A stretch of DNA of 64,000 nucleotides from Fibrobacterota bacterium (GTDB lineage Bacteria; Fibrobacterota; Fibrobacteria; UBA11236). The notes under the pieces are model-generated. The model saw only the letters and a list, made by a program, of their open reading frames with translations. It was not told where the DNA came from and searched no databases. Below, piece after piece: positions 26,501 to 58,322 of the stretch. Within the stretch, counting starts at the first letter, position 1. Every line of letters begins with the position of its first letter. Made by a program: the position numbers and the translations under genes. Location: positions 248,001-312,000 of the forward strand of contig CANKII010000002.1 of the NCBI GenBank assembly GCA_947482115.1, in the 5' to 3' direction.

Positions 26501-26664
26501 CGAATCTGTGCTGGTTGAAGTCATCTTTATTTGTTTTCAGCGTATTATTTGGCGTTTTCGACAGGTTTTCCCTCCAATGGATATCGACTTTTTGCATGAT
26601 ATTTGATGGGATTGACGTTAGATTCTGGTCTGGGCAGATCTAGACTGTAAAAAAGGTGTATTCC

Positions 26665-28650: not shown

Positions 28651-28683
28651 GAGGTCTTGAAACAAAAGACAGGGGTTTTCGTT

Positions 28684-29850
28684 ATGAGCAAAAATATTTT
28701 CCACATTCGTTTTAGCCTCTGCGCGGCTCTCCTGCTGGGTCTCGCTTCGGCGCAGAACGGACCCATTGTTTCGAGACTGACCACCGCGAAGTTTTCCCTG
28801 ATGAAAGGGTGGTGGGGCAGCGACCACGACGCCAGTACTCCGGTTAATTTCAAGTACTTCAAGGCGCTCGCGACCACCTACGGCATCACCATGGACACGT
28901 TTAATCTGAACACTTCGACGGCGCCGCTCACCGCAGCTAACCTCGCTAATTACGATGTGATGGTCTGGTACAACGTGTACCGCATGTACGAGCATTTTGA
29001 CACCGCGACCGGAAACCGGATTCAGAGGTGGTACGAAAACGGCAACAAGGGGCTGGCGTGCATTCACCAGTGCGTGCGCAGTTCCCAAACCTCTGCGGGA
29101 ACCCCGTGGACTTGGTGGATCAACATGATGGGCAAAGATTATATCGATTACGCGGCTTCCGGAGTATCGGGTCCGGTGTTCGTGGACAACGAAGCGATGG
29201 CCACTATCTACCCGCCGGGCCTCGTTACTGCCGGGCAAAAGTTTACTTGGAGCGACGAATGGTACATTTACGTGGGGAATCCCCGGGGCACCTCAGGTAC
29301 GCAAATGATGTGGACGACCGCCGATTCGTTGTTCACGGGCACCTACAAAAAGACCATGGGTAATGATCATCCCCTCGTCTGGATACGGAATTTCGATAAA
29401 GGCCGGTTCATCGTGAACGGGATGTACCATACGACGGCATTGGCCACCGCCACGGGCGCCCTCAGGGCGTTCGCGGATTCCAGCTTCATCGGCCAATTAA
29501 GGTTTTTGGCGGGCTATGCGGGTTGTACGGATTCCAATTATACCGAGTACAACAAGAAAGCCACTCACCTGGGTACGAACGCCTGTGTGACTCCAAGGGG
29601 CACGAATACGGTATGGCTTACCGGCAATAAAAACGGTGTGAAGCTGGACGCATTCCGGCTCTCGTTTTCCCAACCTGGCAGCCACAGCGTGGAGATTTTC
29701 AATACCTCCGGCGTCCGGGTAACTGTCCGTCACGGAGAAGGAACTCGTGAGTACAATTTTGCAGAAATTCTTAAGCCAGGCGTCTATTTCGTCAAGATTA
29801 TGACCCCCGGAATGAAGGTTCCCTTCAGCCACAAGATCATACTCTGGTAA
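28684..29850 (+). CDS. secreted ThuA-like protein with C-terminal sorting tail
   Basis: 388 aa from ATG 28684. Signal peptide (FSLCAALLLGLASA). Residues about 40-270 fit the ThuA (trehalose-utilisation) glutamine-amidotransferase-like fold: YFKALATTYGITMDTF, NYDVMVWYNVYRM, GLACIHQCVRSS, FTWSDEWYIY, and HPLVWIRNFDKGRFIVNGMYH. In other bacteria ThuA acts with ThuB on disaccharides through 3-keto intermediates. The C-terminus (HSVEIFNTSGVRVTV, then ILKPGVYFVKI) is a Por-type tail, so this version is likely surface or secreted, unlike cytoplasmic ThuA. 33 bp after the propeller gene and 89 bp before the barrel gene. Confidence 0.75.
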   Translation: MSKNIFHIRFSLCAALLLGLASAQNGPIVSRLTTAKFSLMKGWWGSDHDASTPVNFKYFKALATTYGITMDTFNLNTSTAPLTAANLANYDVMVWYNVYRMYEHFDTATGNRIQRWYENGNKGLACIHQCVRSSQTSAGTPWTWWINMMGKDYIDYAASGVSGPVFVDNEAMATIYPPGLVTAGQKFTWSDEWYIYVGNPRGTSGTQMMWTTADSLFTGTYKKTMGNDHPLVWIRNFDKGRFIVNGMYHTTALATATGALRAFADSSFIGQLRFLAGYAGCTDSNYTEYNKKATHLGTNACVTPRGTNTVWLTGNKNGVKLDAFRLSFSQPGSHSVEIFNTSGVRVTVRHGEGTREYNFAEILKPGVYFVKIMTPGMKVPFSHKIILW

Positions 29851-29939
29851 CTGGAAAGAAACGCGGCAAAGTTTACGCGTCCGGGAATCTTTCCATTTCT
29901 TTCGTTGAAATTGAATCCAAGCTGAAAGGCGGTTGATCC

Positions 29940-31475
29940 ATGCACCATTTTTCAAAACTATTGTTTGCCGGTCTTTCCTTATTTTCCTTCGAAGCATTCG
30001 CCGCATCTTCTGTAGACACAGTAGAGCGTAAGCCGCTTGTCATCGGCACCAAAATCGAAACGGGGCAGATTGTGCAGGGTTCGAAAGTCATCGACTTCGA
30101 TCCTGACGACTATTACATCTCGCAGATTGGCGTCAGCCTGACACAGGAAGTCGTCGTCAACCGGAGGCTGAACATCAAGGTCGGAGCGGGCGGCGTCTTC
30201 TATAGTACGTATCCCCAGACCTTCAGCAGCGGCGGAGCGGGCTTCGGCGTGAAATTCGGCCCCGGCATCACTCAGGCACAGGCCTTGTATAAGTTTGGGG
30301 ATCCCGATCATTCTTGGGGAGCCCTGCGCGTGGGATACTTCGGCTACAAGTACAACCCCGACGCCAAGAACCTCGGCGAATACCTGTTCCGTGCGGGTGC
30401 CTACCCGACCTACGTGGTCACCGGCGGCTGGTCCATCATGGACAATGCGCTGGCCAAGGTGCAGGGACTGGAATTTAGCGTATCGCAGTTGAATGGCGCG
30501 CTGAAGCACAGCCTCCTCCTGTACAACGAACGGGATTTTCGTCCGCCAGGAGATTTCACACCTGCCTACTTGGGCGAGTACACCAAGGGACCGATCCAGG
30601 TCGGCGCGGGCGTTTCCTTCTACCATTATTTTCCGATCAAAGGGAAGCTTACCTCTCCCAAGGGCCCGAACAATACCGTCTATACCTTCAACAACCTTCC
30701 GGCCATCAACGCGGTCGATCCGTTCGACACCAACAAGACCCTGCACTATACGGCCGGCCAACACATTGTGGCGGGCTACGGGGACATCAACGGCGTCCTC
30801 GCCCCGGCAATCAACCCGGGCTGGAACGCGGACTCGGTGATCGCGTACTACAAACCGTCTGTGGACTATTTCACGTTCAAGGCCATCAAGCTCATGGGCC
30901 GGGCCTCCTTCAGCATCCAGAAAGTGATGCCGATCGCGATGCTGAACCCCGAGGATCTGAAGGTGTACGGCGAAGTCGACTTGCTGGGCGTGAAGAATTA
31001 TCCCGGAGTCTACGACAATAGGACGGAACGCATGCCGATCATGCTGGGCATCAACCTGCCGACGTTCCGTCTGCTCAATGCACTCTCCCTCGAAGTCGAA
31101 TACTTCAAAAACGGCAATCCCGACGACATGGGAAGCCAACAGGCGAAGCTGAACCCGGCTTACGCCTACAACACGGTCACCAAATACAGCCAGGACAACG
31201 GCGGGGGACTCGGTAACGCCCCGAACGCGGACCCCATTGTGCAGGACTATTACTCAGTGCTGCTGAAGGATCATTTCGACAACCACCGCGACGACTGGAA
31301 GTGGACGTTGTACGCCGTCAAGCAGGTCACGACGGGCATCTCGGTACGGGCCCAGGTGGCGAATGATCACTTCCGCGCCCAGGACACGTATTTCCCGGGA
31401 TACTGGACGGGTCCGAGCCTGATGCGCAAGCCCGAAGACTGGTATTACGTCGTCAGCATCAATTTTGGAATCTGA
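29940..31475 (+). CDS. outer-membrane beta-barrel protein, YNPD-KNLG family (solitary member)
   Basis: 511 aa with signal peptide (LLFAGLSLFSFEAFA). Alternating strands throughout and no other domain. It shares its core motifs with the six barrels at 48.5-58.3 kb: YKYNPDAKNLGEYLFRAG, VGAGVSFYHYFPIKGKLTSP, EDLKVYGEVDLLGVKNY, RMPIMLGINLPTF, LSLEVEYF, DDWKWTLYAVKQ and AQVANDHFRAQ, then PEDWYYV before the C-terminus. It is longer than the others, with extra loops, and ends NFGI rather than YFF. Position between a ThuA-like and an enolase-superfamily gene suggests uptake or export of a sugar-derived compound. No named family recognised. Its codons look more C-ending than those of its neighbours. 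Confidence 0.7.
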   Translation: MHHFSKLLFAGLSLFSFEAFAASSVDTVERKPLVIGTKIETGQIVQGSKVIDFDPDDYYISQIGVSLTQEVVVNRRLNIKVGAGGVFYSTYPQTFSSGGAGFGVKFGPGITQAQALYKFGDPDHSWGALRVGYFGYKYNPDAKNLGEYLFRAGAYPTYVVTGGWSIMDNALAKVQGLEFSVSQLNGALKHSLLLYNERDFRPPGDFTPAYLGEYTKGPIQVGAGVSFYHYFPIKGKLTSPKGPNNTVYTFNNLPAINAVDPFDTNKTLHYTAGQHIVAGYGDINGVLAPAINPGWNADSVIAYYKPSVDYFTFKAIKLMGRASFSIQKVMPIAMLNPEDLKVYGEVDLLGVKNYPGVYDNRTERMPIMLGINLPTFRLLNALSLEVEYFKNGNPDDMGSQQAKLNPAYAYNTVTKYSQDNGGGLGNAPNADPIVQDYYSVLLKDHFDNHRDDWKWTLYAVKQVTTGISVRAQVANDHFRAQDTYFPGYWTGPSLMRKPEDWYYVVSINFGI

Positions 31476-31489
31476 TCCGGGAGTCGCGC

Positions 31490-32767
31490 ATGGACCGTCG
31501 TGAATTTTCCAAGGGTATGGCCCTCGCTACTGTCGCAGGATTGATGGATGTCCGCAATGTTTTTTCCGACACAGTCGCACCCATGAGTAATTCCAACGGG
31601 CAAGCCTCCATCTACCCGAAATTCTCACACAACACCAAAATCACCATCGAGAAGATCGACATCTTCCCGGTGCGATATCCGATGGTGATGCGCTTCAAGT
31701 TTTTCGAAGGTCCGGTAAGCGGCGGGGGAAGACCCACGGTTATCATTAAAATCACTGCGAACGACGGAACCGTTGGTTGGGGTGAGAGCGTTCCTATTCC
31801 GCGCTGGAGCGGCGAGACCATCGAAGGTGCCGTTGCCTGTCTGAAGAATTATTTGATTCCGGTTTTAATTGGCAAGGATGTTTTCGATCTCGAAGAAATT
31901 CATCATACCATGACCAAGGAAATGGCGTCGGATTTTTCCACGACCTATCCGATTACCAGGGCGGGCATCGACCTGGCACTTTATGATTTGATTGGCAAGG
32001 CGCTCAAACAAAATGTGGCCGAGATGCTGGGACGGAAAACACCAGACGACCTTCTGCTCAGTTGGACCTTGAATCCCAAGGATCTCAGTGAGATTGAAGG
32101 GTTGATGCAAAAGGGCCGCGAGCGGGGCTTTGAGAACTTCAACGTGAAGATTTCTCCCGATACCAAATTCGATCTCGAGTTATGCAAAACGGTCAAGAAG
32201 CTTGCACCCAATGGATTTCTTTGGGCGGACGCCAATTGCGGATACGATGTGGCCACTGCTTTGGAGATGGCTTCCAAATTGGCGGATGCGGGGGTGGCGG
32301 TTTTTGAAGGTGCATTGCATCCTAATTGCATTTCCGGATATCAGCAACTGGTTAAACAGGGAGCTTTGCCCATTATCATGGACGAAGGCTGCGTGTCCCC
32401 GGTCGAAGTGGAAGAGTTTATGAAGTTGAAGATGTTGAACGGCATTGCGATGAAGCCTTCACGCTGTGGTGGATTGACATCGGCGATTGCGCAGATGAAT
32501 TTGCTGGAGAAATACAATCTGAAGTTTTTGGGAAGCGGTTTGACCGATCCCGATATTTCCCTCGCTGCTTCATTGATTCTTTACGGAGCTTATAATCTTC
32601 AACATCCCGCTGCGTTGAACGGTCCGCAATTTCTTGGAACCAGCGTATTGAAGGAACCGTTCAAGGTGAACGGCGGCCGCGTTCGCATTCCCAAAGGCCC
32701 GGGGTTGGGAATTGAGGTGGATGAGGACAAGGTCAAAGATTTATCGGCATCAACTTGGAAGGGCTGA
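31490..32767 (+). CDS. enolase-superfamily (mandelate racemase/muconate lactonizing type) protein with Tat-like signal
   Basis: 425 aa. The N-terminus MDRREFSKGMALATVAGL has twin arginines and a hydrophobic stretch like a Tat signal, so folded export is likely. The capping domain (residues about 45-165) and barrel follow. Barrel motifs: FNVKIS (one lysine kept of the K-x-K pair), WADANCGYD, VFEGALHP and IMDEGCVSP as the metal ligands Asp, Glu, Asp/Glu, and IAMKPSRCGG as the opposing lysine. Lysines on both faces point to the MLE subgroup, which includes dipeptide epimerases and cycloisomerases. Substrate unknown. It follows the barrel gene by 14 bp. Confidence 0.75.
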   Translation: MDRREFSKGMALATVAGLMDVRNVFSDTVAPMSNSNGQASIYPKFSHNTKITIEKIDIFPVRYPMVMRFKFFEGPVSGGGRPTVIIKITANDGTVGWGESVPIPRWSGETIEGAVACLKNYLIPVLIGKDVFDLEEIHHTMTKEMASDFSTTYPITRAGIDLALYDLIGKALKQNVAEMLGRKTPDDLLLSWTLNPKDLSEIEGLMQKGRERGFENFNVKISPDTKFDLELCKTVKKLAPNGFLWADANCGYDVATALEMASKLADAGVAVFEGALHPNCISGYQQLVKQGALPIIMDEGCVSPVEVEEFMKLKMLNGIAMKPSRCGGLTSAIAQMNLLEKYNLKFLGSGLTDPDISLAASLILYGAYNLQHPAALNGPQFLGTSVLKEPFKVNGGRVRIPKGPGLGIEVDEDKVKDLSASTWKG

Positions 32768-47020: not shown

Positions 47021-48376
47021 ATGAATGGAATGAAATTATTTGGATTTGCGTCTTTACTGGCGATCTCCTCCTTTGTCGCGCTTAGCGTGGCTCAACCGGT
47101 TCCCGCACCCACAACCCCGGACAAGCTTTGTTCTGTGGATACATCTGCCGCCTTTCAGGCCGATACGGTGGTTGCTGCACCGGATTCGGACGGCTTCGTT
47201 TCCATTTTCGACGGACGCTCCTTCAAAGGATGGTGGCAGAATTGCCTGAGTTCCCACTCAAGCGACAAAACAAATGGTGCCATTTGGAAAGTGGATTCGA
47301 CGCGCCAAGCGATTTATGCCATGTCACGTAGTGGTTCGGGGGGCTTGCTGTCCACCCATAAGAGATATGCGCACTATGAACTCATGTTTGAATGGTGGCC
47401 CCAGTATGGTAATGATGGCGGCGTCTTCAACCGTTATGCCATTACGTCCTCAAGCAACGTGGCTGCCAATCAAATGGTGCTCGACTACTTGGGTGCTTCC
47501 GGTGTTTTCAGTTACTACAGTGAAGCGGGTTTCCCGGGAGGCCGAAACGGCCGTCCGTGGAGCTATAGCTCGGCAACGGCCCTCACCATTCCCGGCTCCG
47601 GTGGTGGTGCGGGAAGCGGCGGCACTCCCGACATCAATGATTGGACGAAGCAGACCAGCCGCAAGAATTTGATTACAGGTTATGGTCCTGCGGATATTGG
47701 TTGCGCCGCCAGCGGATGCGTGCAGGCTGATTATTTGCGCCTTTGGAATGGCAGTGGCTGGATGCAGGTGCGTCAGATTTACTACGGTGGCCTGAGCACG
47801 ACCCAGCCCACAAGCGTTACCTCAGCCGGAGATAAAATTCACGAGTTCACTTTCATGCGGAAACACTACCCCCTCAACGACACCAACCTTTCCCGCATGC
47901 AGCGCGTCGATAAGGACACGGCCAAATGGGTTACGGTTGTTCAGGATTCCATGGTGTTGACTGCATCTCAGGTGAACACCTATCAGAAAATCGCTCCTTT
48001 TGCGTTTCAAATTCATGGTGGTGCCCGCTACATATACGCCAATAATGGTGGTAAGGGTTCTTGGTACCGCGACATAAAGGTGCGGACCTTGGATTCACTC
48101 GGAAGACCTGCCACTCTCGTAGCTGTTGCCCTCAATCCTGCATCGAAGAAGGTTCAATACGACCTTCATGTTGTTTCCGGAGCCCTCGTAGGTTCCATGC
48201 CCTTCGATCACCTTGTAACCATTTCTGATCTCAAGGGACGCGTGCTGCAGGAATACACGGGTTTTGCCGGTGCGAATATCAGCCATGATCTCCCCGTATA
48301 TTCCGGGGTAATGTTGGTGAAAATCGCAACCATGCGCGGCGTGCAAACCCTGCGTGTCAATCAGGCGACCCGGTAG
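47021..48376 (+). CDS. secreted DUF1080 (3-keto-disaccharide hydrolase-like) protein, block 1
   Basis: 451 aa; GAGGGA is 7 nt upstream. Signal peptide (LFGFASLLAISSFVALSVAQ). The DUF1080 beta-sandwich shows GFVSIFDGRSFKGWWQNC, YAHYELMFEWWPQYGNDGGVFNRY, FAFQIHGGARYI and WYRDIKVRTL. Family members are now linked to hydrolysis of 3-keto-glycosides. An insert has paired cysteines (IGCAASGC). The last 65 residues (VTISDLKGRVLQEYTGF to the end, with YSGVMLVKI) look like a Por-type sorting tail. It heads a block with three barrels; its paralogue at 52794 heads an identical block. Confidence 0.82.
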   Translation: MNGMKLFGFASLLAISSFVALSVAQPVPAPTTPDKLCSVDTSAAFQADTVVAAPDSDGFVSIFDGRSFKGWWQNCLSSHSSDKTNGAIWKVDSTRQAIYAMSRSGSGGLLSTHKRYAHYELMFEWWPQYGNDGGVFNRYAITSSSNVAANQMVLDYLGASGVFSYYSEAGFPGGRNGRPWSYSSATALTIPGSGGGAGSGGTPDINDWTKQTSRKNLITGYGPADIGCAASGCVQADYLRLWNGSGWMQVRQIYYGGLSTTQPTSVTSAGDKIHEFTFMRKHYPLNDTNLSRMQRVDKDTAKWVTVVQDSMVLTASQVNTYQKIAPFAFQIHGGARYIYANNGGKGSWYRDIKVRTLDSLGRPATLVAVALNPASKKVQYDLHVVSGALVGSMPFDHLVTISDLKGRVLQEYTGFAGANISHDLPVYSGVMLVKIATMRGVQTLRVNQATR

Positions 48377-48389
48377 TTCAAACCTAAAG

Positions 48390-48423
48390 CCGTCGGATTT
48401 CAGGAAATCCCCTGAAATCCGAC
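48390..48423 (+). terminator. hairpin between DUF1080 and barrel A, block 1
   Basis: CGTCGGATTTCAGG (48390-48403) is the exact inverted copy of CCTGAAATCCGACG (48410-48423), with a 6-nt loop. No T-run follows, so it is more likely a partial terminator or an RNA-stabilising hairpin that sets enzyme and barrel levels apart. A hairpin is also found at this junction in block 2. Confidence 0.55.
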
Positions 48424-48484
48424 GCATTTACCGAACGCATACGATGTTCATTTTCGGAGCACCTTCTTTGGGGTTTCAGTCTTA

Positions 48485-49849
48485 ATGAGAACTTTCCTTC
48501 CATTAATGAGCGCAGGGGCATTGGCTGCTTCCATTTTTGCGGCCGATGGTGTTTCGTTTAAGCTTCATGGACAGGGCTGGACCCAAAGCGGGCGGCTCAT
48601 GCATTCTTCCGATTCCGTATTGGCCGACGGTCAGATCTACAATGTGAGCGGAAATTCCATGCAAAGTTTGGGGGGACAGTTCACAATCGACGCCGATTTG
48701 GGGGAACACTGGAAAGGCTCCTTTGGAATTGGAGTGTATCAGGTTTCCCAATCCCTGGGGAGCATCGGCGCGCATGACATCAGCTACACCGAATGGTTTA
48801 ACGTGTCAATGTGGCGGGCTTATGTCGCGCAGGCGAATCTGACCTATTCCCTTGGAAGCGCGGAACGTCCTTGGCTTAGTGTGACTGCGGGCAATTTTTC
48901 CTATGACTACAATCCGGATGTGAAGAACCTGGGGCTTTATCTCCTGCGGGGTCCTGTTTATCCCGGAGTGCTCATGTCCGGTTTTCAGGAGTTCGACACG
49001 GATACATCCAAAAGCACGCAGACCGGATTCAAGGTTCACAATGCTCTGGGAAACTTCACCCAGGATATCCTCTTCCTGAACGAGCGTGTTTTACCGCCTA
49101 CGTTTGACTGGAGCCTTGCCTATGTGGCCAAGTATCGTGCGTTCGGGGCATTGGACATTGGCGGTGGCGTCAATTTTTACCGGTTAGTCCCTTATTCATC
49201 CGCCATCGAAACTCCGGGACATATCGTCGGCAATCCCGATGCGGCAAGAAGCTACGACGTCGTTGCGCCGGGCGACACGGTTTTCCTCACCCATCAAGGC
49301 ATCAAGCTGATGGGAATGTTCAGTCTGGATCCCAAGCGCTGGTTTCCGTTCGAAAACATGGGCGCTGAAGACTTCAAGTTGTACGGCGAAGCGGCCATCA
49401 TTGGCGTTAAGAATTACGGTAATTATTACAAGAAGATTGGCGAACGCATTCCGGTCATGGGCGGATTCAATATCCCCACTTTTGGAATTCTGGACATGCT
49501 TTCGCTCGAAATCGAGTGGTACGGCTCCCATTACAGAAACGATTTGGCCTACATTGGATATCCTGCCTCCATCGTGGCTCCCTGGCAGGATCCCAAGTTC
49601 CCCATCCCTTCTCCGGGACCCGTGAGACCGGGTGCATATGCGGATTCCACCGCGGATAACCTGAAATGGTCCCTGTTCCTGCGGAAGACGGTTGCAAAAC
49701 ACATTCAGTTTACCGCCCAAATCGCCAATGATCATTATCGACCCGGCCCCCTTCCCACGGCCTTTATCAACAGCGTGGGGGGGACTCAAGATGTGTTAAC
49801 CCGGCCTAGTGACTGGTATTTCATGGGTCGTGTGGGCTTTTTCTTCTGA
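48485..49849 (+). CDS. outer-membrane barrel, YNPD-KNLG family, paralogue A (block 1)
   Basis: 454 aa. Signal peptide (LPLMSAGALAASIFA). The mature protein opens with the type-A start LHGQGWTQSGRLMH. The family core follows: FSYDYNPDVKNLGLYLLRG, PTFDWSLAYVAKY, DIGGGVNFYRL, GIKLMGMFSLDPKRW, EDFKLYGEAAIIGVKNY, RIPVMGGFNIPTFG, LSLEIEWYG, NLKWSLFLRKT and AQIANDHYRPG. It ends SDWYFMGRVGFFF, a C-terminal Phe of the kind used for insertion by the BAM complex. About 16-20 strands are plausible. Substrate unknown. The stop overlaps the next frame's ATG (TGATG). Confidence 0.72.
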   Translation: MRTFLPLMSAGALAASIFAADGVSFKLHGQGWTQSGRLMHSSDSVLADGQIYNVSGNSMQSLGGQFTIDADLGEHWKGSFGIGVYQVSQSLGSIGAHDISYTEWFNVSMWRAYVAQANLTYSLGSAERPWLSVTAGNFSYDYNPDVKNLGLYLLRGPVYPGVLMSGFQEFDTDTSKSTQTGFKVHNALGNFTQDILFLNERVLPPTFDWSLAYVAKYRAFGALDIGGGVNFYRLVPYSSAIETPGHIVGNPDAARSYDVVAPGDTVFLTHQGIKLMGMFSLDPKRWFPFENMGAEDFKLYGEAAIIGVKNYGNYYKKIGERIPVMGGFNIPTFGILDMLSLEIEWYGSHYRNDLAYIGYPASIVAPWQDPKFPIPSPGPVRPGAYADSTADNLKWSLFLRKTVAKHIQFTAQIANDHYRPGPLPTAFINSVGGTQDVLTRPSDWYFMGRVGFFF

Positions 49850-49872
49850 TGCGGACTCGAAGGATGCGGTTA

Positions 49873-51183
49873 ATGAACGTGCGTATGAATCTTCTCCTGC
49901 TGGCATTGCCCGCGTTGCTTTTTGCGCAGGCGCAGGAAATGAAACTGGAATATCATGGAGCCGGTTGGACGCAGTTTGGGAAGGTTGAAAACAGTTATAC
50001 AAACACTCCCGACCTTGAGTCCGAAGACGATTACAACAACAACTGGATGCAAAACACCGGTGGCCAAATCAGCGTCACCGCCAAAATCGATTCCAATTGG
50101 GAAGGCGGTTTGGCATTGGGCGTGATAAGTGTTCATTTGGCCCGCGGTAACTTTGCAAAGGCCGGATATTGGTATCCCTTCTCGGTTCCTTACGTGGGAG
50201 AGGCGCGCATTACCTATTCGCATGCTCTCTTCAACACCGGGAAATTCCAGTTAACCATGGGTAATTTCGGTTATGGTTACAGCCCGGATGCAAAGAATCT
50301 GGGGCTTTACCTGATGAAGGGATATGTCTATCCCGGCGCGATTGAATCCGGTTTCGGGAGCGTATTCGGGGGAATGGCCCGGTATCAACAGGCTGGGTTC
50401 AGCAACGATGTGATTTTGAAATCGGAGGACGAGCGGCCTGTTTACGACTGGTCGCTGGCCGATGTGGTTTCCTATCAGATTCATCCAGGTTTGGAAATCG
50501 GAGCCGGCGTGAATTTTTACCGTCTTTTGTCCCAGAATTCTGATCTCACTTCACCGGGACCTGTGTGCGAAAGCACCTATGGCAAGGAAGACGGCAACAG
50601 TCTTTGCTCGATTGTGGACTATTCGGACACCACGGGGGGCAAGGCTCCGGACACGGTAACTGGTTCCCTTGCCGGAACCAAATTAATGGCCCGCCTGCAT
50701 ATTGATCCCAAGGCTTTATTCGGTTTTTCGGGGTTAGGGTCCTTGACATTGGGCAAACAGGATTTGATTCTGTATAGTGAAGCGGCCGTGTTGGGTCTCA
50801 ACAATTACCGCATTGTTTATGACGATATTTTGCAGCGCATTCCCGTCATGGTGGGTTTCAATTTTCCCTCGTTTGGTTACCTCGACTACCTTTCCTTGGA
50901 AGTGGAGTATTACGCCTCCAAAAACTCCAGTGACAATGTCGCGGCAAATTTTGGAGGGGCTTGGGTCCCATCCCAGGTGGACCACAGCGTTTACAGTCGT
51001 GATGACTGGAAATGGTCCGCGAATGTGGCCAAGACTTTGTTTGGACACATGCAGTTTACGGCCCAGGTGGCCAATGATCATCTGCGTTTGGGCGGGTATC
51101 ATGACCGGCCCAATGCGGGCAAAGAGGTCTTAAGGACTCCCAAGGATTGGTATTGGACATGCAAACTCGCTTACTTCTTCTAG
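49873..51183 (+). CDS. outer-membrane barrel, YNPD-KNLG family, paralogue B (block 1)
   Basis: 436 aa from ATG 49873, which has AAGGA 8 nt upstream; the frame also has ATGs at 49849 (overlapping the paralogue A stop) and 49864. Signal peptide (NLLLLALPALLFAQA). Type-B start LEYHGAGWTQFGKVENS. Core: FGYGYSPDAKNLGLYLMKG, VYDWSLADVVSYQ, IGAGVNFYRLL, TGSLAGTKLMARLHID, QDLILYSEAAVLGLNNY, RIPVMVGFNFPSFG and LSLEVEYYASK, then AQVANDHLRLGG and TPKDWYWTCKLAYFF. The motif reads YSPD instead of YNPD. Two cysteines in the long loop (VCESTYGKEDGNSLCS) may pair. Confidence 0.7.
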   Translation: MNVRMNLLLLALPALLFAQAQEMKLEYHGAGWTQFGKVENSYTNTPDLESEDDYNNNWMQNTGGQISVTAKIDSNWEGGLALGVISVHLARGNFAKAGYWYPFSVPYVGEARITYSHALFNTGKFQLTMGNFGYGYSPDAKNLGLYLMKGYVYPGAIESGFGSVFGGMARYQQAGFSNDVILKSEDERPVYDWSLADVVSYQIHPGLEIGAGVNFYRLLSQNSDLTSPGPVCESTYGKEDGNSLCSIVDYSDTTGGKAPDTVTGSLAGTKLMARLHIDPKALFGFSGLGSLTLGKQDLILYSEAAVLGLNNYRIVYDDILQRIPVMVGFNFPSFGYLDYLSLEVEYYASKNSSDNVAANFGGAWVPSQVDHSVYSRDDWKWSANVAKTLFGHMQFTAQVANDHLRLGGYHDRPNAGKEVLRTPKDWYWTCKLAYFF

Positions 51184-51202
51184 GGATCCCGGGAAAGCGA
51201 TC

Positions 51203-52597
51203 ATGAAGTCATTCATATTTCTCAGCAGGCATGCGCTTGTTCATGCGGGAATCTGCGTGATTGCAGGGATGCTGGCCTGTTCCAACGCGCAGGAAAGCGA
51301 TGGGATCACCTTTGGCGCCGCGGGTTGGATGCAATACAGTGTCATTGGGAAAAGTTCGGACAGCGTGGCGATCCCGGGGTTTTACAAGGGCGGATTGGAC
51401 GGGAAAAGCGTTTTCTCGTCCGGCGCCCAGATATCCATGGTTGCCCAACCTTCCGAAAAGCTTCACGTCTCCGCAGGAGTGGGAATGGCGGCGGGCAATA
51501 CCCTGTCCGGTGGTCTCCACGTAAGCAGCGGCTATGCTCCCTCCGGTGTGGACGCCTATGTTGCAAACGCCAACTTTACCTACCTGTTTCAAAACACGGC
51601 GAATTCCAAAGTTTCAGTGACAGGCGGGTTGTTTAACTACGACTATAATCCGGATGCCAAAAACCTCGGCCTGTATCTTCTGCGCGGTCCGGTGTATCCC
51701 GGAATCCTGATTTCCGGATTTGAAACCAAGCATGTCATGCCCGTGGCCAATATGCTGGGTCTTCAATTGCATCATCAAATGGGGGCGTTCCGGCAGGATT
51801 TGCTCCTTTCCAGTGACATGGAGTATTACCCGTTTTTCGATCTGTCGCCGGCGTATGTGGCCGGTTATCAGGTTCATCGAACCTTGCACATTGGCGCGGG
51901 GGTTAATTTCTATCACCTGCTTCCGGTGGACAGCAAACTCACTTCCGGCCAGAATCCGGATGGAGGCCGGTGGACTTATGCCGATCCGTTGGATACGGTG
52001 GGGGGCAAGAAGCCCGACACGACCAACCTTTCCTTCAATGGAACCAAGGTTATGGCCAACGCCTCTTTCGATCCCAAGCCCCTTTTCGGCGGAGCAGAGT
52101 GGCTGGGACCGGAGGATCTCAAGCTTTATGGGGAAGTGGCCCTGCTGGGTCTCGACAATGACAAGGCTCACAAGAAAATTTACGGGGATTATTTGCATCG
52201 CATGCCGGTGATGGTGGGGTTCAACCTGCCGACGCGAAAGACCCTCGACCATCTTTCCTTGGAAGTGGAATGGTATGCCTCTGCCAACGCGGACAACCTG
52301 GACAAGTATAACGTGATAGGGCATCCCATCAGTCCTTACCCCACAAATTGGGATTTGGATCCGAATACCGGGAACCGCTATCTTGCCAGACGGGCCATCC
52401 GTGACAACTGGAAGTGGTCGTTGCATGGTGCCAGGACAATTCAAAAGCACGTCCTGCTGAGTTTTCAAGTTGCCAATGATCATTACCGCCCCGGAATTTT
52501 TGACGGCTATGCAGATTCCAATCCGCCTCACCGGGATGCCGTTTTGGTGACACCCAAAGACTGGTACTTCACGACTAAGCTGGCCTATTTCTTTTAA
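51203..52597 (+). CDS. outer-membrane barrel, YNPD-KNLG family, paralogue C (block 1)
   Basis: 464 aa; GGGAAAG precedes the ATG. Signal peptide (HAGICVIAGMLACSNAQ; the Cys is not in a clear lipobox). Type-C start ITFGAAGWMQYSVIGKSSDS. Core: FNYDYNPDAKNLGLYLLRG, SGFETKHVMPVANMLGLQLH, FFDLSPAYVAGYQ, IGAGVNFYHLLPVDSKLTS, GTKVMANASFDPKPLFGG, EDLKLYGEVALLGLDND, RMPVMVGFNLPT and LSLEVEWYAS, then FQVANDHYRPG and TPKDWYFTTKLAYFF. Last gene of block 1, 19 bp after paralogue B and followed by a terminator. Confidence 0.72.
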   Translation: MKSFIFLSRHALVHAGICVIAGMLACSNAQESDGITFGAAGWMQYSVIGKSSDSVAIPGFYKGGLDGKSVFSSGAQISMVAQPSEKLHVSAGVGMAAGNTLSGGLHVSSGYAPSGVDAYVANANFTYLFQNTANSKVSVTGGLFNYDYNPDAKNLGLYLLRGPVYPGILISGFETKHVMPVANMLGLQLHHQMGAFRQDLLLSSDMEYYPFFDLSPAYVAGYQVHRTLHIGAGVNFYHLLPVDSKLTSGQNPDGGRWTYADPLDTVGGKKPDTTNLSFNGTKVMANASFDPKPLFGGAEWLGPEDLKLYGEVALLGLDNDKAHKKIYGDYLHRMPVMVGFNLPTRKTLDHLSLEVEWYASANADNLDKYNVIGHPISPYPTNWDLDPNTGNRYLARRAIRDNWKWSLHGARTIQKHVLLSFQVANDHYRPGIFDGYADSNPPHRDAVLVTPKDWYFTTKLAYFF

Positions 52598-52623
52598 CCA
52601 CATCTTCTTTGGTATTACCAAAA

Positions 52624-52653
52624 CCCAGGTGAATTTTTCACCGGGATTTTTTG
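52624..52653 (+). terminator. rho-independent terminator ending block 1
   Basis: CCC-A-GGTGAA pairs with TTCACC-GGG around TTT, with one bulged A. ATTTTTT follows. It separates block 1 from block 2, so block 2 needs its own promoter. Confidence 0.75.
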
Positions 52654-52793
52654 TTTTCAAACACATAGAATCGAGAGTCAGATGGGAATGGCAAAGGCCT
52701 TTTTTCCACTGATTTTAAAGAGTATTTCCAGCGGACCGGAGGTATATTTTTAGCCGAACCTTACGGTTGAATTTTCCCATGAGAGGGGCTGTT

Positions 52794-53984
52794 ATGAATA
52801 TCTGGAAAACTGTTGCATGTGGAGCTGTTGTTTTGGCCGGGACGGTGGGTGTTTTCGCCCAGCCCGAAGCCCCTTTGACGGGTACGAATGCGGCTTGCGC
52901 CACGGGTCCGAACTTGTCGGATACCTTGAATTTTTCTCCTGATGATTCCGGCTTCACCAAGATTTTTGACGGCAAAAGCCTCAAAGGCTGGTGGGAAAGC
53001 TGCCAGAGCGGTCACTCCAGCGGAGATCGCACTCTCGGAGGCATCTGGCTCGTGGATAGCGTCAATGGCCTGCTGTTCTCCACCCAAAAGGTTGCTGGTA
53101 ACGCCGGCAGCATTATCATGACCAACAAATCCTACGGCAATTACGAACTGATTTTCGATCTCTGGCCATCCTTTGGAAATGACGGCGGCGTTTTCAATCG
53201 TACCACCGCGAATGGAACCTGTTACCAGACCACCGTGGACTATATCCAGGGGAGCAGTGTCGGGGGTGTTTATTTCGAGAACGGTTATACCGGCGGTTCC
53301 CGTAACGTGGATCCCTTCGTCTTTGGTGCGAACAAATCCACCATTACCATAGGCACCAATTCCAATGCCACCAACAGGTGGGATACGGTCACCAAGAAAT
53401 TCGGAAACCCTACCGCTTACGGGTGCCCAACCACTGGTTGCGGTCCCGGAAGCTGGACGGCGGTATGGGACACGGGTGGTTGGAACCAGATGCGAGTCAA
53501 ATTCTTTGGGACCGGAGCTTCGGCAACGAACAAGGTTCATAATTACGCTTGGATACGCCGGTTCGGCGCGGCCCAATGGGTGCCCACCGTCATGGACTCC
53601 GTCCAATACAATACTCCGGCGAGTTATCTGGGCATTCAAATACATGGCGGCTCGGGAAGCTGGTCAAACAGCAACGGCCATTGGTATCGCAATATCAAAA
53701 TACGTCCCTTGACGGATCAGGGCGTTCCGATCATCCAGACCACATCCATCAAATCGGGTGCGCGAATGAGCCATGGCATCCATGTCGTTTTCGGAATGCT
53801 GACAGGCTCACTGAACACAGATTATCAAATCGTAGTCAGTGATTTGAGCGGACGTGTGTTGGAGAAGTTCTCCGGTCGCGCCGGATCTTTCCGGCATCCG
53901 CTGAACAGCCGTGGCATTTTGTTGCTGCAAATAAAGACTGCCAAGGACACGGAGCACCTCCGGGTGGCCCGGCTTTTTGAATAA
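52794..53984 (+). CDS. secreted DUF1080 (3-keto-disaccharide hydrolase-like) protein, block 2
   Basis: 396 aa from ATG 52794, which has GAGGGG 5-6 nt upstream. Signal peptide (KTVACGAVVLAGTVGVFA). Same family and layout as the protein at 47021: GFTKIFDGKSLKGWWESC, YGNYELIFDLWPSFGNDGGVFNR, YLGIQIHGGSGSW and WYRNIKIRPL. The cysteine insert is conserved (YGCPTTGC). The Por-type C-terminal tail has ISR-like strands ending NSRGILLLQIKT. It is about 55 residues shorter, mainly in loops. Heads block 2. Confidence 0.82.
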   Translation: MNIWKTVACGAVVLAGTVGVFAQPEAPLTGTNAACATGPNLSDTLNFSPDDSGFTKIFDGKSLKGWWESCQSGHSSGDRTLGGIWLVDSVNGLLFSTQKVAGNAGSIIMTNKSYGNYELIFDLWPSFGNDGGVFNRTTANGTCYQTTVDYIQGSSVGGVYFENGYTGGSRNVDPFVFGANKSTITIGTNSNATNRWDTVTKKFGNPTAYGCPTTGCGPGSWTAVWDTGGWNQMRVKFFGTGASATNKVHNYAWIRRFGAAQWVPTVMDSVQYNTPASYLGIQIHGGSGSWSNSNGHWYRNIKIRPLTDQGVPIIQTTSIKSGARMSHGIHVVFGMLTGSLNTDYQIVVSDLSGRVLEKFSGRAGSFRHPLNSRGILLLQIKTAKDTEHLRVARLFE

Positions 53985-54005
53985 TCACACCTCTTGAAGA
54001 AAGCC

Positions 54006-54020
54006 CCCGTTTTTTACGGG
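54006..54020 (+). terminator. hairpin between DUF1080 and barrel A, block 2
   Basis: CCCGT and ACGGG pair around TTTTT, 21 bp after the DUF1080 stop. It is shorter than the block 1 hairpin but at the same junction, so a similar role is likely. Confidence 0.4.
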
Positions 54021-54041
54021 ACAAGGATCTTGAATTTTTTC

Positions 54042-55487
54042 ATGAGCTCGTCTCTCCGTCTTTTGCTTGTCTCGGCCTTCTGTGTCTTGAGCGCCGGGGC
54101 GGAGGAGACTGTTTCCATCCAGATTCATGGTCAGGGGTGGACCGAGATGGGTCGCGTCATGCATGTGACGGACACGCTGGGTGGTGCGGGAACAGGCGTC
54201 AATCTCAACGGGAACTGGCTGCAAACCAGTGGTGCGCAGTTCACGGCCGTGGCGGGGATTGGTGAAAACTTCGAAGGGGCTTTTGGCTTCGGAGGGTATC
54301 AGGTTTACCATTCGCAGGGAAACGCGAAACAACAGCGCACCATGCGTTCCATCTTCCAGAATTTCATCACCGAAGCGAGAATGACGTGGTACCATGGTGA
54401 CAGGAATGCCCCTGAGTTCAGCCTTACCTTTGGGAATTTCGCGTACAATTATAATCCTCAAGTGAAAAACCTAGGGCTTTACCTTCTGCGCGGCCCGGTG
54501 TATCCCGGTTATCTCTCTTCGGGATTCAAGGATTTCAAGACGGACACCACCAAGGGCAACATGCTGGGCGCCCGGTTTCACCATGCCGCGGGAAATTTTC
54601 AGCAGGATCTCCTCTTCGCCAATGAACGGGATCTGCCTCCCACCTTCGACTGGAGCGTTGCGTACATCGCCCGTTACAGGATGGGCGCTCTGGAAATTGG
54701 TGGCGGCCTCAACTTCTACCGGATTCTCCCGAATGATTCCAAACTGGAGACAGTGAAAAACATTGAAGCAACGGGCGATACGTTGCACCCTCAGGACACG
54801 GTGACCTATTCCAATCAAGGGACCAAGCTGATGGGCATGTTCAGCGTGGATTTCAAGCGTTGGATTTCCGCGACTGGGTTGGGAACCCATGATCTCAAGT
54901 TGTACGGCGAGGCGTCCGTGTTGGGAGTGAAGGATTACGGTTCCTATTACGATGACATTTGGCGGCGAATTCCGGTCATGTTGGGATTCAACATTCCCAC
55001 CTTCGGCTTGCTCGACTACTTCTCACTGGAAGTGGAGTGGTATGGTTCCAAATACCGCAATAGCCTTGGCAAGATCGGCAATTTCAACAGCCTTTCCCAG
55101 CCCAACGTCGCCCCATCACCGGTGGAGCCGCTTCCGGGGGCTCCGTCTCCGGTTCCCTTGTCGTACGAAGACTATTACCACAACTACGCCTTCAACAACA
55201 CCGGGACTCTGGATTCCGTGGGCCGGCTGGCGCTTCGTACAGGCGACACGCTGCAGGTCAGGGGAACTTCCTGGGATGTGGAAAACCTGGTGACGGACAA
55301 CTGGAAGTGGTCCCTTTATCTGGAAAAAACACTGCACAACCATTTGAGTTTCTCGGCGCAGATCGCCAACGATCATTTCCGTCCACGGCCGGCGTCCACG
55401 GCCATCAATGAGCAGGGGGGAATGGCGGAGGCGTTTACAACTCCGAGGGACTGGTATTTCATGTTCCGGATAGGGTATTTCTTCTGA
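54042..55487 (+). CDS. outer-membrane barrel, YNPD-KNLG family, paralogue A (block 2)
   Basis: 481 aa from ATG 54042; upstream AAGGA is at 54023-54027, rather far, so a TTG at 54030 is possible. Signal peptide (SSLRLLLVSAFCVLSAGA). Type-A start IHGQGWTEMGRVMH, like the block 1 paralogue A. Core: FAYNYNPQVKNLGLYLLRG, FKDFKTDTTKGNMLGARFHH, PTFDWSVAYIARY, IGGGLNFYRILPNDSKLE, GTKLMGMFSVDFKRW, HDLKLYGEASVLGVKDY, RIPVMLGFNIPTFG and LSLEVEWYGSKYRN. It ends TPRDWYFMFRIGYFF. The long Pro-rich extracellular loop (PSPVEPLPGAPSPVPL) is unique to it. TGATG overlap with paralogue B. Confidence 0.72.
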   Translation: MSSSLRLLLVSAFCVLSAGAEETVSIQIHGQGWTEMGRVMHVTDTLGGAGTGVNLNGNWLQTSGAQFTAVAGIGENFEGAFGFGGYQVYHSQGNAKQQRTMRSIFQNFITEARMTWYHGDRNAPEFSLTFGNFAYNYNPQVKNLGLYLLRGPVYPGYLSSGFKDFKTDTTKGNMLGARFHHAAGNFQQDLLFANERDLPPTFDWSVAYIARYRMGALEIGGGLNFYRILPNDSKLETVKNIEATGDTLHPQDTVTYSNQGTKLMGMFSVDFKRWISATGLGTHDLKLYGEASVLGVKDYGSYYDDIWRRIPVMLGFNIPTFGLLDYFSLEVEWYGSKYRNSLGKIGNFNSLSQPNVAPSPVEPLPGAPSPVPLSYEDYYHNYAFNNTGTLDSVGRLALRTGDTLQVRGTSWDVENLVTDNWKWSLYLEKTLHNHLSFSAQIANDHFRPRPASTAINEQGGMAEAFTTPRDWYFMFRIGYFF

Positions 55488-56860
55488 TGCGCCGCGCTTC
55501 CGGATATTCTTCAAACATGCATCGCCTCATTGGCTGGCTGCTGGCGATTCTGCTGGCGGTTCCATTCCATGGCGCGGCAACAGAGAGCATTACCATACAA
55601 TACCACGGCGCCGGCTGGATACAGTTCGGCCGCATTGAACACAGCACGGATACGGTGTCGGGTCCGGCCGAATACAATCTCAACAAGAATTGGATACAGA
55701 ATACTGGAGGACAAATCACCGCCGTAGGCAAGGTATCGGAAAATTGGGAGGGTGGGCTCGGGCTCGGGGCGATTCAGGTGTCGAATCCGCGCGGTTCCTT
55801 GGTTGGGGCGCATACGTGGAGCAACACGTGGAATCCTTTTGTCACCGAGGCCCGTCTGACGTATTCCCAACCCATCGGGGCAAAGAACAAGCTTCAGCTA
55901 ACCTTCGGTACTTTCCCCTATGTCTACAACGCGGATGTCAAGAATTTTGGCCTGTATCTCACACGCGGACAGGTTTATCCCGGCACGTTGTTCTCGGGTT
56001 TTGAAACCAAACATGTCCAGCCCACGGCGGCCACGCAGGTGGGAGGGCTTGCCCGCATTCAATTGGGGGGATTCCAAAACGACGTGCTTTTGAATTCCGA
56101 GACGGAAACCAAACCGTACTTCGATATTTCCGTGGCCGATATCGCCAGTTACCAGATAACCCCGTGGTTGCAAGTCGGAGGCGGCGTGAATTTTTACCGC
56201 CTTCTTCCGCAAAACCCTGATGTGACGTCGCCCGAGAAAAACTGCGCTGGTGAATGGAGTGAAAACAACCTGTCGGACGGCGACGAACAAGAGCACTGTT
56301 ACATCCTTGACACGCTGGCCAACAGCACCGTGGATACAGTGACCGGCTCCATGTCCGGAACAAAGTTGATGGGCCGGTTTCGAATCGATTTCAGGACCTT
56401 GCTTGGATTGTCGGCCCCGTTCGGAAAGCAGGATTTGATTGTTTACGGCGAAGCCGCGATAGTGGGTCTGACGGATTATCCGAAATATTACGACGATGTA
56501 TGGCAGCGGGCCCCGATCATGGTGGGAGTCAACCTTCCGGCTTTCGGCTATCTGGACAAGTTTTGCGTGGAGGTCGAATATTACGGTTCGAAAAATTATC
56601 CAGACTATGTGAAGGCGGAGACCAATGCCTCGTGGGTTCCCAGGGTGCCCGGTTCCGGAGTCAACAATAGCCGCAATGACTGGAAATGGTCCCTGTATGC
56701 CTCACGCGTGCTTATGGGACATTTGAGGCTTGCCGGCCAGGTCGCGAATGATCATCTGGTCATCCCGGCCCCGCCAGCGGCTTCGGATCCGGATTGGGCC
56801 GAAGCGCTGACCACGCCGAAGGATTGGTACTGGATGCTCAAACTGGCCTACTTCTTTTAA
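55487..56860 (+). CDS. outer-membrane barrel, YNPD-KNLG family, paralogue B (block 2)
   Basis: 457 aa. The ATG at 55487 overlaps the paralogue A stop; an ATG at 55517 starts the signal peptide more compactly (HRLIGWLLAILLAVPFHGAA). Type-B start IQYHGAGWIQFGRIEHS. Core: FPYVYNADVKNFGLYLTRG, YFDISVADIASYQ, VGGGVNFYRLLPQNPDVTSP, TGSMSGTKLMGRFRID, QDLIVYGEAAIVGLTDY, RAPIMVGVNLPAFG and VEVEYYGSKNYPD, then AGQVANDHLVI and TPKDWYWMLKLAYFF. It shares the TGS-x-x-GTKLM insert and the cysteine loop with block 1 paralogue B. Confidence 0.7.
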   Translation: MRRASGYSSNMHRLIGWLLAILLAVPFHGAATESITIQYHGAGWIQFGRIEHSTDTVSGPAEYNLNKNWIQNTGGQITAVGKVSENWEGGLGLGAIQVSNPRGSLVGAHTWSNTWNPFVTEARLTYSQPIGAKNKLQLTFGTFPYVYNADVKNFGLYLTRGQVYPGTLFSGFETKHVQPTAATQVGGLARIQLGGFQNDVLLNSETETKPYFDISVADIASYQITPWLQVGGGVNFYRLLPQNPDVTSPEKNCAGEWSENNLSDGDEQEHCYILDTLANSTVDTVTGSMSGTKLMGRFRIDFRTLLGLSAPFGKQDLIVYGEAAIVGLTDYPKYYDDVWQRAPIMVGVNLPAFGYLDKFCVEVEYYGSKNYPDYVKAETNASWVPRVPGSGVNNSRNDWKWSLYASRVLMGHLRLAGQVANDHLVIPAPPAASDPDWAEALTTPKDWYWMLKLAYFF

Positions 56861-56878
56861 GGATCCGGAAGAAGAGAC

Positions 56879-58267
56879 ATGAAACCTTCCTTCTTTCACC
56901 GCACACGGTCTGTCGCGCGGCTCATGATGTTCGCTTTGGGAGCGTTCATGCCGGCAACAGCGCTGGACGTGCAAGACATCACCTTCAACGGGCTCGGATG
57001 GGTGCAATATGGATATGTGGTCCAGAGCACGGACACGGCCAAAAACAATTACAACGGAAATTCCGTGCAGACGACGGGTGCTCAGATATCCTTGCGTGCA
57101 AAAATCTCCGAGAAGTTCCAGGGAGCGGTCGGCCTGGGCGCGCTTGAAAATCATTTGCTGGCGGGTCAATCCGCGCGCGGCATTGTCCCCTTGACGGTGA
57201 CGCCTTACATTGCTGAGGCCAATTTCACCTACTCCTTCTGGAATGAAGGCGCTTCCCTGCTGACATTAAGGGGGGGGCTTTTCCCCTATGACTACAATCC
57301 CGATGTCCGGAATCTGGGCCTCTACCTGCTGCGCGGTCCCGTGCATCCCGGCATTCTTCTCTCGGGTTTTGAGACCAAGGCTGTTCTGCCCATCGCCAAT
57401 ACCTTGGGATTTCAGTTGCATCACGAGATGGGGAATTTCCAGCAGGATTTCATCCTCAACAGTGAGACGGATCTGTATCCGTTCTACGACATATCCCCGG
57501 CATACGTTGCCAATTACAGGCCGATGCCTGCATTGCGGCTTGGAGCCGGGGTGAACCTTTATCGTTTCATTCCCATTGAATCAAAACTGACGTCCCCGGA
57601 ATATTTTTCCCCGAACGGCCGCGATCAGGACCCCGGCGGCACACCTCCCTATCATCCCTATCGTCGCGCCTATACCTATGTCGATACGGTGGCTCATGAC
57701 ACCACATTCATTTCCTTTGCGGGGATTAAACTCATGGCGAACGCCTCTTTCGATCCTAAACCGCTGTTCGGGAATCCAAGGGTGCTTGGCGCAGAGGATT
57801 TAAAGATCTATGGCGAAGTGGCGTTGTTGGGACTGGAAAATGACAAGGCCTACAAGGACATTTATGGCGATTATCTGCATCGCATGCCGGTGATGATGGG
57901 CTTCAACATTCCCGCATTTCATTTTCTGGACAATCTTTCCCTGGAAATGGAATGGTATGGTGCGAAATTCCGGGATGACCTGTGGCGTTACCAGACCGGA
58001 AGAAGCTTTTACCCTTCACCCTTACCGGTGTCGAATTCGAGCTATGATCCGGTAAGCGTATTTGACCCGGAGAAAAATGTGAAGAGGGACAATTGGAAAT
58101 GGTCCCTGTATGGTGCGAAGACGATTCAACGCCATTTTAAGATCAGCTTCCAATTGGCGAACGATCATTTCCGACCCGGAGGTGTTGTGGCTAGCCCCTC
58201 ACAGGAATCGATCCTTTCCACTCCCACGGATTGGTACTGGATGACCAAAATCGCCTACTTCTTCTGA
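56879..58267 (+). CDS. outer-membrane barrel, YNPD-KNLG family, paralogue C (block 2)
   Basis: 462 aa; GGAAGAAGAG precedes the ATG. Signal peptide (RLMMFALGAFMPATA). Type-C start ITFNGLGWVQYGYVVQSTDT. Core: FPYDYNPDVRNLGLYLLRG, SGFETKAVLPIANTLGFQLH, FYDISPAYVANY, LGAGVNLYRFIPIESKLTSP, GIKLMANASFDPKPLFGN, EDLKIYGEVALLGLEND, RMPVMMGFNIPAF and LSLEMEWYGAK, then FQLANDHFRPGG and TPTDWYWMTKIAYFF. MANASFDPKPLFG and SGFETK are shared with block 1 paralogue C only. Last gene of block 2, followed by a terminator. Confidence 0.72.
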   Translation: MKPSFFHRTRSVARLMMFALGAFMPATALDVQDITFNGLGWVQYGYVVQSTDTAKNNYNGNSVQTTGAQISLRAKISEKFQGAVGLGALENHLLAGQSARGIVPLTVTPYIAEANFTYSFWNEGASLLTLRGGLFPYDYNPDVRNLGLYLLRGPVHPGILLSGFETKAVLPIANTLGFQLHHEMGNFQQDFILNSETDLYPFYDISPAYVANYRPMPALRLGAGVNLYRFIPIESKLTSPEYFSPNGRDQDPGGTPPYHPYRRAYTYVDTVAHDTTFISFAGIKLMANASFDPKPLFGNPRVLGAEDLKIYGEVALLGLENDKAYKDIYGDYLHRMPVMMGFNIPAFHFLDNLSLEMEWYGAKFRDDLWRYQTGRSFYPSPLPVSNSSYDPVSVFDPEKNVKRDNWKWSLYGAKTIQRHFKISFQLANDHFRPGGVVASPSQESILSTPTDWYWMTKIAYFF

Positions 58268-58295: not shown

Positions 58296-58322
58296 CCCCG
58301 CTGTTTTAAAGCGGGGCTTTTT
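58296..58322 (+). terminator. rho-independent terminator ending block 2
   Basis: CCCCGCT (58296-58302) pairs with AGCGGGG (58310-58316). CTTTTT follows. A-rich sequence on the left lets it also serve the convergent leftward operon. Confidence 0.85.

Follow-up and report, generated by a model that had tools for sequence, protein, structure and literature searches.

Why would a bacterium encode three different outer-membrane barrels, in a fixed order, behind one secreted enzyme? The question is raised by a 64,000-nucleotide stretch of DNA (here the window; assembly GCA_947482115.1, contig CANKII010000002.1, positions 248,001 to 312,000), which is part of a 2.7-Mb, 99% complete Fibrobacterota genome. 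At positions 47021 to 58267 of the window, eight plus-strand genes lie head to tail in two blocks, D1 A1 B1 C1 D2 A2 B2 C2, where D denotes a secreted DUF1080 protein and A, B, and C are related barrels. An initial annotation had given this order and these gene limits, and all eight open reading frames (ORFs) were confirmed on the plus strand. The four genes were duplicated together, in several ancient events. For the system as a whole, the best explanation, to which we give a probability of roughly 60%, is a sugar-porin heterotrimer of A, B, and C that works with the secreted enzyme.

A four-gene unit copied repeatedly

The locus is flanked on one side by what we take to be typA and on the other by a DUF3108 gene and, presumably, purD (typA and purD named from sequence). 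Its genes and gene junctions are the following.

47021-48376, + strand: D1, secreted DUF1080 protein (PF06439, 3-keto-glycoside hydrolase/lyase family), 451 amino acids; from Pfam and a signal-peptide-like N terminus
48485-49849, + strand: A1, outer-membrane barrel, position A, 454 amino acids; from ORF, alignment, and trees
49849-51183, + strand: B1, outer-membrane barrel, position B, 444 amino acids; from ORF, alignment, and trees
51203-52597, + strand: C1, outer-membrane barrel, position C, 464 amino acids; from ORF, alignment, AlphaFold model, and fold search
52767-53984, + strand: D2, secreted DUF1080 protein, 405 amino acids; from PF06439 profile and fold search
53994-55487, + strand: A2, barrel, position A, 497 amino acids as called (a later ATG may be the true start); from ORF and trees
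55487-56860, + strand: B2, barrel, position B, 457 amino acids; from ORF, alignment, and trees
56879-58267, + strand: C2, barrel, position C, 462 amino acids; from ORF, alignment, and trees
49847-49851 (A1/B1) and 55485-55489 (A2/B2), + strand: TGATG junctions, in which the stop of A overlaps the start of B; from sequence

The A-B overlap is one base in both blocks, and the B-C gaps are 19 bases in block 1 and 18 bases in block 2. Barrels at the same position share 53.1% (A1-A2), 49.9% (B1-B2), and 53.6% (C1-C2) identity, compared with 36.5 to 42.5% for all cross-position pairs, as the initial annotation had predicted. The D proteins are 33 to 37% identical, the best BLASTP partner of each protein is its same-position counterpart, and the A and C genes still align at the DNA level (∼67%). 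The motifs that had been quoted for the barrels (HGQGW, YHGAGW, and others) are present, except that SGFETK is not specific to C, as it also occurs in B2.

We took barrel loci from the window genome and ten relatives (11 Fibrobacterota genomes), with barrels found by an iterated profile. In a tree of 132 barrels, which covered 24 trio blocks of 10 genomes, the A, B, and C proteins formed three groups of 24, and among the 72 barrels of these blocks A, B, and C each lay on one side of a branch (two blocks, G002 C4/C91 and G006 C89/C78, are inferred joins across contig ends). Five identical block clades, or block classes, recurred inside each of the three groups. A mixture-model tree with outgroups concurred, with two label changes overall, the minimum possible. 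Grouping of barrels by block, which the initial annotation had set against its proposal of whole-operon copying, is ruled out by both barrel trees; the barrels group by position instead. A search for fully type-specific residues common within A, B, and C gave one position only, 459.

The D genes follow the same history. Of the 24 blocks, 23 have a D gene, and the exception sits at a contig end. Trees built separately for A, B, C, and D shared 13 to 16 of 20 to 21 splits (≤2 to 3 in 1,000 relabelings), and distance correlations among them were 0.87 to 0.94. The position clades with their recurring block clades, together with the agreeing D tree, therefore establish that the four genes of the quartet were copied together. 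The quartet order was also present in nine of nine relatives of the same family. The proposal of whole-operon copying thus stands insofar as four genes were copied in one piece and kept their order while diverging, as seen in the congruence of the trees, but the copying was ancient and repeated. A single recent local tandem duplication is ruled out by the identities of ∼50% and by block classes common to several genera.

The two window blocks belong to classes I and II and are just one of several tandem combinations at related loci. In the window genus, typA and purD border the locus wherever the assembly shows both flanks, and the content of the locus varies: classes I and II in the window genome (G000), D2 alone followed by class I in G001, and another class followed by class I in G003. 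Retention is all or none, since decayed blocks keep no intact barrel: the one in G001 consists of D2 only, and the one in G009 of D plus a B/C deletion chimera containing a stop. Separately, the C gene is broken in L089:6702-8074 (G003, frameshift) and in L081:8406-9533 (G008, internal TAG), which could be real decay or assembly error.

Porin-like barrels in runs of at most three

No Pfam or NCBIfam family matched the barrels, with no porin family at an E value of ≤1 for six barrels or ≤0.05 for 21 barrels; named porin families (PorP/SprF, FadL, OprD, LamB, and others) gave no profile match, and a PDB sequence search gave chance-level matches only. An AlphaFold model of C1, built from 21 sequences (pLDDT, 75; pTM, 0.77), shows a 16-stranded barrel with short turns on one side and, after strand 5, a conserved loop of 37 residues, whose modeled position corresponds to that of the porin L3 constriction loop.

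51638-51748, + strand: C1 conserved 37-residue loop after strand 5, residues 146-182, YDYNPDAKNLGLYLLRGPVYPG...; from strand list and conservation

A Foldseek search of the PDB with this model placed OmpM1 of Veillonella first (E value, 5.7e-13), followed by the R. blastica porin, OprB, AlgE, and OmpF-type porins. Most of the best structural matches are 16-stranded trimers, and AlgE is an 18-stranded monomer. From the modeled fold, a porin role of the barrels is very likely. The 16 strands, the long loop after strand 5, and a C-terminal aromatic residue of the classical trimeric porins (OmpF/OmpC, R. blastica porin, OmpM1, and OprB) are all predicted here; unlike those porins, the barrels lack a sequence-family match, and their genes form ordered groups of two or three paralogues alongside those of secreted enzymes. 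With strand facing deduced from periodicity and not from coordinates, outward positions are strongly hydrophobic on strands 9 to 13 and 15 and weakly so on strands 16, 1 to 4, 6 to 8, and 14. By analogy with trimeric porins, this pattern would fit an oligomer interface formed on the side of strands 16 and 1.

We next consider how many barrels stand in a row. Loci of the window's own family and order, together with some distant loci, held 36 single, 25 paired, and 26 triple runs and no run of four; one of the paired runs is the decayed G009 fragment, and a lone apparent run of four proved to be a trio in which a frameshift splits the third gene. Eight distant genomes contributed 85 single, 7 paired, and 11 triple runs and none longer. 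The total is about 190 runs, never of four, in a sample that includes runs at contig ends, counts a few distant runs in both sets, and consists of loci picked by similarity to C1 or to a singleton of the distant genome G070.

In a tree of single, paired, and triple sets, the trios have about five independent origins (ABC; L004/L115/L116; six G070 trios; L123-L125; and L126), and the pairs have about a dozen. The six trios of G070 (L105 and L118-L122) were co-duplicated, with first, second, and third positions in separate clades of matching subbranching, and the L123-L125 trios likewise form three position clades. A trimeric ancestor would explain the ceiling of three directly, and this ceiling and the less lipophilic strands 16 and 1 to 4 are indirect pointers to trimeric assembly. 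The absence of fours and the all-or-none retention through repeated block duplication are stronger together. The window genome itself carries a second, independently evolved trio (L004:12361-19949, G000:C8), which also lies behind a DUF1080 gene and has orthologues in G002 and G007.

A secreted enzyme and carbohydrate neighbors

The DUF1080 assignment of D1 and D2 was borne out by Pfam PF06439, whose current name is “3-keto-disaccharide hydrolase.” D1 scored 31.6 bits over the first 75 of 187 profile positions and D2 scored 52.3 bits over all 187 (cutoff, 26.8). D1 has a signal-peptide-like N terminus, as judged from its sequence. D2 also matched solved DUF1080 proteins by profile, and its model, of moderate quality, matched the folds of 4jqt, 4hxc, and 9fbe (E values, 3e-8 to 2e-6), the last of which is a 3-keto-glycoside eliminase/hydratase. 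Characterized members of the family act on 3-keto-disaccharides (PMC9007349). The D proteins are of the same domain family and fold as the DUF1080 3-ketoglycoside hydrolases BT2157 and CCNA_01705, but they add a C-terminal domain (CTD) like those of the type IX secretion system (T9SS) and adjoin porins.

53772-53981, + strand: D2 C-terminal domain, type IX secretion CTD-like; from structural match to the mirolase CTD (8qb1)

The TIGR04183 sorting-domain profile gave E values of 0.0039 for D2 and 0.037 for D1, both below its cutoff. The CTD of D2 superimposed on that of mirolase with a root mean square deviation of 1.9 to 2.1 over ∼80 columns, and the window genome encodes SprA/Sov (TIGR04189; 558.7 bits). 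Based on the mirolase match and the presence of SprA/Sov, D is probably T9SS cargo.

Matches to the barrel profile occurred in 68 of 168 Fibrobacterota genomes. Strong matches came from the window's own family, the sister family, and several others, whereas those in Fibrobacteraceae were weak and partial. Proteins of ∼340 amino acids at L092-L095 and L097, mostly from Fibrobacteraceae, matched the central part of the barrel profile only (E values, ∼1e-5 to 1e-7) and are perhaps remote relatives. The window genome has ∼23 members of the family and only two TonB-receptor plugs, neither of them at a barrel locus. Family neighbors include DUF1080, ThuA, glucose/sorbosone dehydrogenase (GSDH), Gfo/Idh/MocA, enolase-superfamily, GH59-like, GH31, GH3, and GH106 proteins and sugar-type transporters of the MFS type. 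Given these carbohydrate neighbors and only two TonB-receptor plugs, the family appears to provide the main route for sugars across the outer membrane, and a carbohydrate substrate is likely. In the trees, the sister of ABC is a singleton (G063) whose operon also encodes an alpha/beta hydrolase, a nucleoside/sugar H+ symporter, and an FG-GAP protein. The earlier statement that the barrels always come with one enzyme holds in the ABC clade, but related barrel sets adjoin ThuA, GSDH, GH31, GH3, or GH106 genes, and a requirement for D by all barrel sets is ruled out by those with ThuA, GSDH, GH31, and GH3.

A proposed heterotrimer and its alternatives

We propose that in this uncultured bacterium each block provides the outer-membrane step of glycoside utilization. 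D would be secreted and, from its predicted activity, would open 3-keto-glycoside glycosidic bonds, presumably at the cell surface. A, B, and C would be paralogous 16-stranded porins made in about equal amounts and assembled as one A+B+C heterotrimer, whose pore would pass the released or oxidized sugar into the periplasm. The trio would have derived from one porin gene, presumably encoding a homotrimer, by tandem triplication, and the quartet would then have multiplied as a unit, probably yielding pores for different substrates. The “multi-part surface machine” of the initial annotation is accordingly recast as a 16-stranded porin set of a carbohydrate uptake system. The heterotrimer is favored by the position clades, the all-or-none retention, the limit of three, and the repeated origins of trios; we lean toward an obligate A/B/C heteromer on these grounds. 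The wider proposition, that sugar-porin homotrimers of Fibrobacterota became obligate, position-specific heterotrimers at least five times and that their operons then multiplied, we regard as evenly balanced.

Hairpins in the blocks may bear on how such a set is expressed.

48391-48424, no strand: near-perfect hairpin of 14 to 15 bp in the D1-A1 spacer; from hairpin search
58296-58316, + strand: terminator-like hairpin with T-run, closing the unit after C2; from hairpin search

Measured as the longest perfect stem within 75 bases downstream of a gene, mean stem length was 7.2 bp after D (23 blocks), 1.8 bp after A and after B, 5.1 bp after C, and 1.7 bp in shuffled sequence. Stems of ≥9 bp followed 8 of 23 D genes and 0 of 47 A or B genes (Fisher P value, 5e-5). 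Most other blocks also have a hairpin at this point of the D-A spacer, but the sequences are unrelated, so that position is conserved and sequence is not. A hairpin after D could let D and the porins differ in amount while A, B, and C stay together; the D-A hairpins are possibly stabilizers or partial terminators. A promoter scan was uninformative (9 found versus 8.9 expected).

Several points weigh against the proposed heterotrimer. Counted by independent origins alone (∼5 trios and 12 pairs), finding no run of four is only a mild surprise, and as most runs are single or paired, the family does not need three different chains. The C1 monomer model is of moderate quality (TM score, 0.40 to 0.48 by query), and some top structural matches, such as AlgE, are monomeric. 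The A-B and B-C gaps are very short, which accounts for part of the hairpin contrast, and the stretches searched after A and B are mostly coding, which weakens them as a control; the sugar substrate is deduced from gene neighbors only; and residue covariation among A, B, and C would need more than the 24 blocks.

A, B, and C might instead be separate homo-oligomeric porins for different substrates, held in one operon to deal with a complex substrate mixture and making no contact. Porins are textbook homotrimers, and those of one organism are usually homotrimeric; furthermore, the loops of A, B, and C differ strongly, and single-barrel operons exist. Independent specialists would be expected to come and go singly, yet 24 blocks and their duplications hold all three, decayed blocks lack all three, and runs end at three in several independent lineages. 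We consider this arrangement, the main rival, unlikely.

Still less probable is that the barrels serve to anchor or export D, in the manner of PorP/SprF with type B T9SS cargo, and are not uptake pores. The order of a cargo gene followed by a barrel gene recalls sprB-sprF, D carries a T9SS-like domain, and binding of cargo to PorP-like barrels has been shown (PMC9143113). However, PorP-like proteins are 14-stranded barrels of the FadL type (PMC9143113), whereas the barrels here model as 16-stranded with a porin-type loop and match no PorP/SprF family of Pfam or NCBIfam (TIGR03519/PF11751 type). In addition, the tail of D resembles type A, which is linked to lipopolysaccharide, and next to the closest singleton relative are genes for a sugar-type permease and a soluble hydrolase. 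PopA-type radial oligomers, in which four, five, or six 16-stranded barrels surround a lipid chamber, share the strand number and have superfamily members in Fibrobacter (FSU_2404 and FSU_0230; PMC12228718), but they are highly improbable here, as PopA is absent from the best 50 fold matches (classical porins and AlgE), its homologues keep strands 12 to 16 hydrophobic whereas the outward faces of 14 and 16 are weakly so in our barrels, and a limit of three paralogues is ill suited to four- to sixfold rings.

An A+B+C heterotrimer would have partial precedents. Mixed OmpC-OmpF trimers are known (PMC5056734), but these are facultative and their genes are unlinked, unlike the linked, ordered set described here. 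That homomers can evolve into paralogous heteromers is a general principle (PMC1895999), by which a self-associating protein is duplicated and its subunits then differentiate, as proposed here. We found no described case of this shift for outer-membrane porins with repeated origins and a limit of three. The SusC/SusD loci of Bacteroidota work alike in that outer-membrane uptake proteins are encoded with secreted carbohydrate enzymes, but no TonB-dependent SusC or SusD was found in the barrel operons, and the system is not a SusCD member. In Fibrobacter succinogenes, a TonB uptake route has only been hypothesized, with no uptake barrel identified (PMC6851124). The initial annotation knew of no described system with this layout, and we found none in the literature and family libraries searched; nor did we find literature on this family, Fibrobacterota porins, or operon-encoded porin trios, in a search that most subscription journals lay beyond.

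If the heterotrimer is correct, these operons would offer a directly testable bacterial case of repeated homotrimer-to-heterotrimer evolution and, in effect, a natural experiment, run several times over, on how symmetric complexes turn asymmetric. The barrel family is a candidate for the main outer-membrane sugar uptake route of a polysaccharide-degrading phylum, and its lack of an entry in the libraries searched leaves ∼20 outer-membrane proteins per genome without a name.

Elsewhere in the window, a second carbohydrate-type operon follows ftsZ (26656-32767) and includes a single barrel and an enolase-superfamily enzyme.

29940-31475, + strand: single-copy distant relative of the barrels, adjoining a ThuA-domain gene (28657-29850) and an enolase-superfamily gene (31490-32767); from profile match

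The ThuA-domain protein of this operon has a weak T9SS tail, and the first protein is secreted, 664 amino acids long, and without a Pfam match; its sequence suggests a propeller like that of glucose/sorbosone dehydrogenase.

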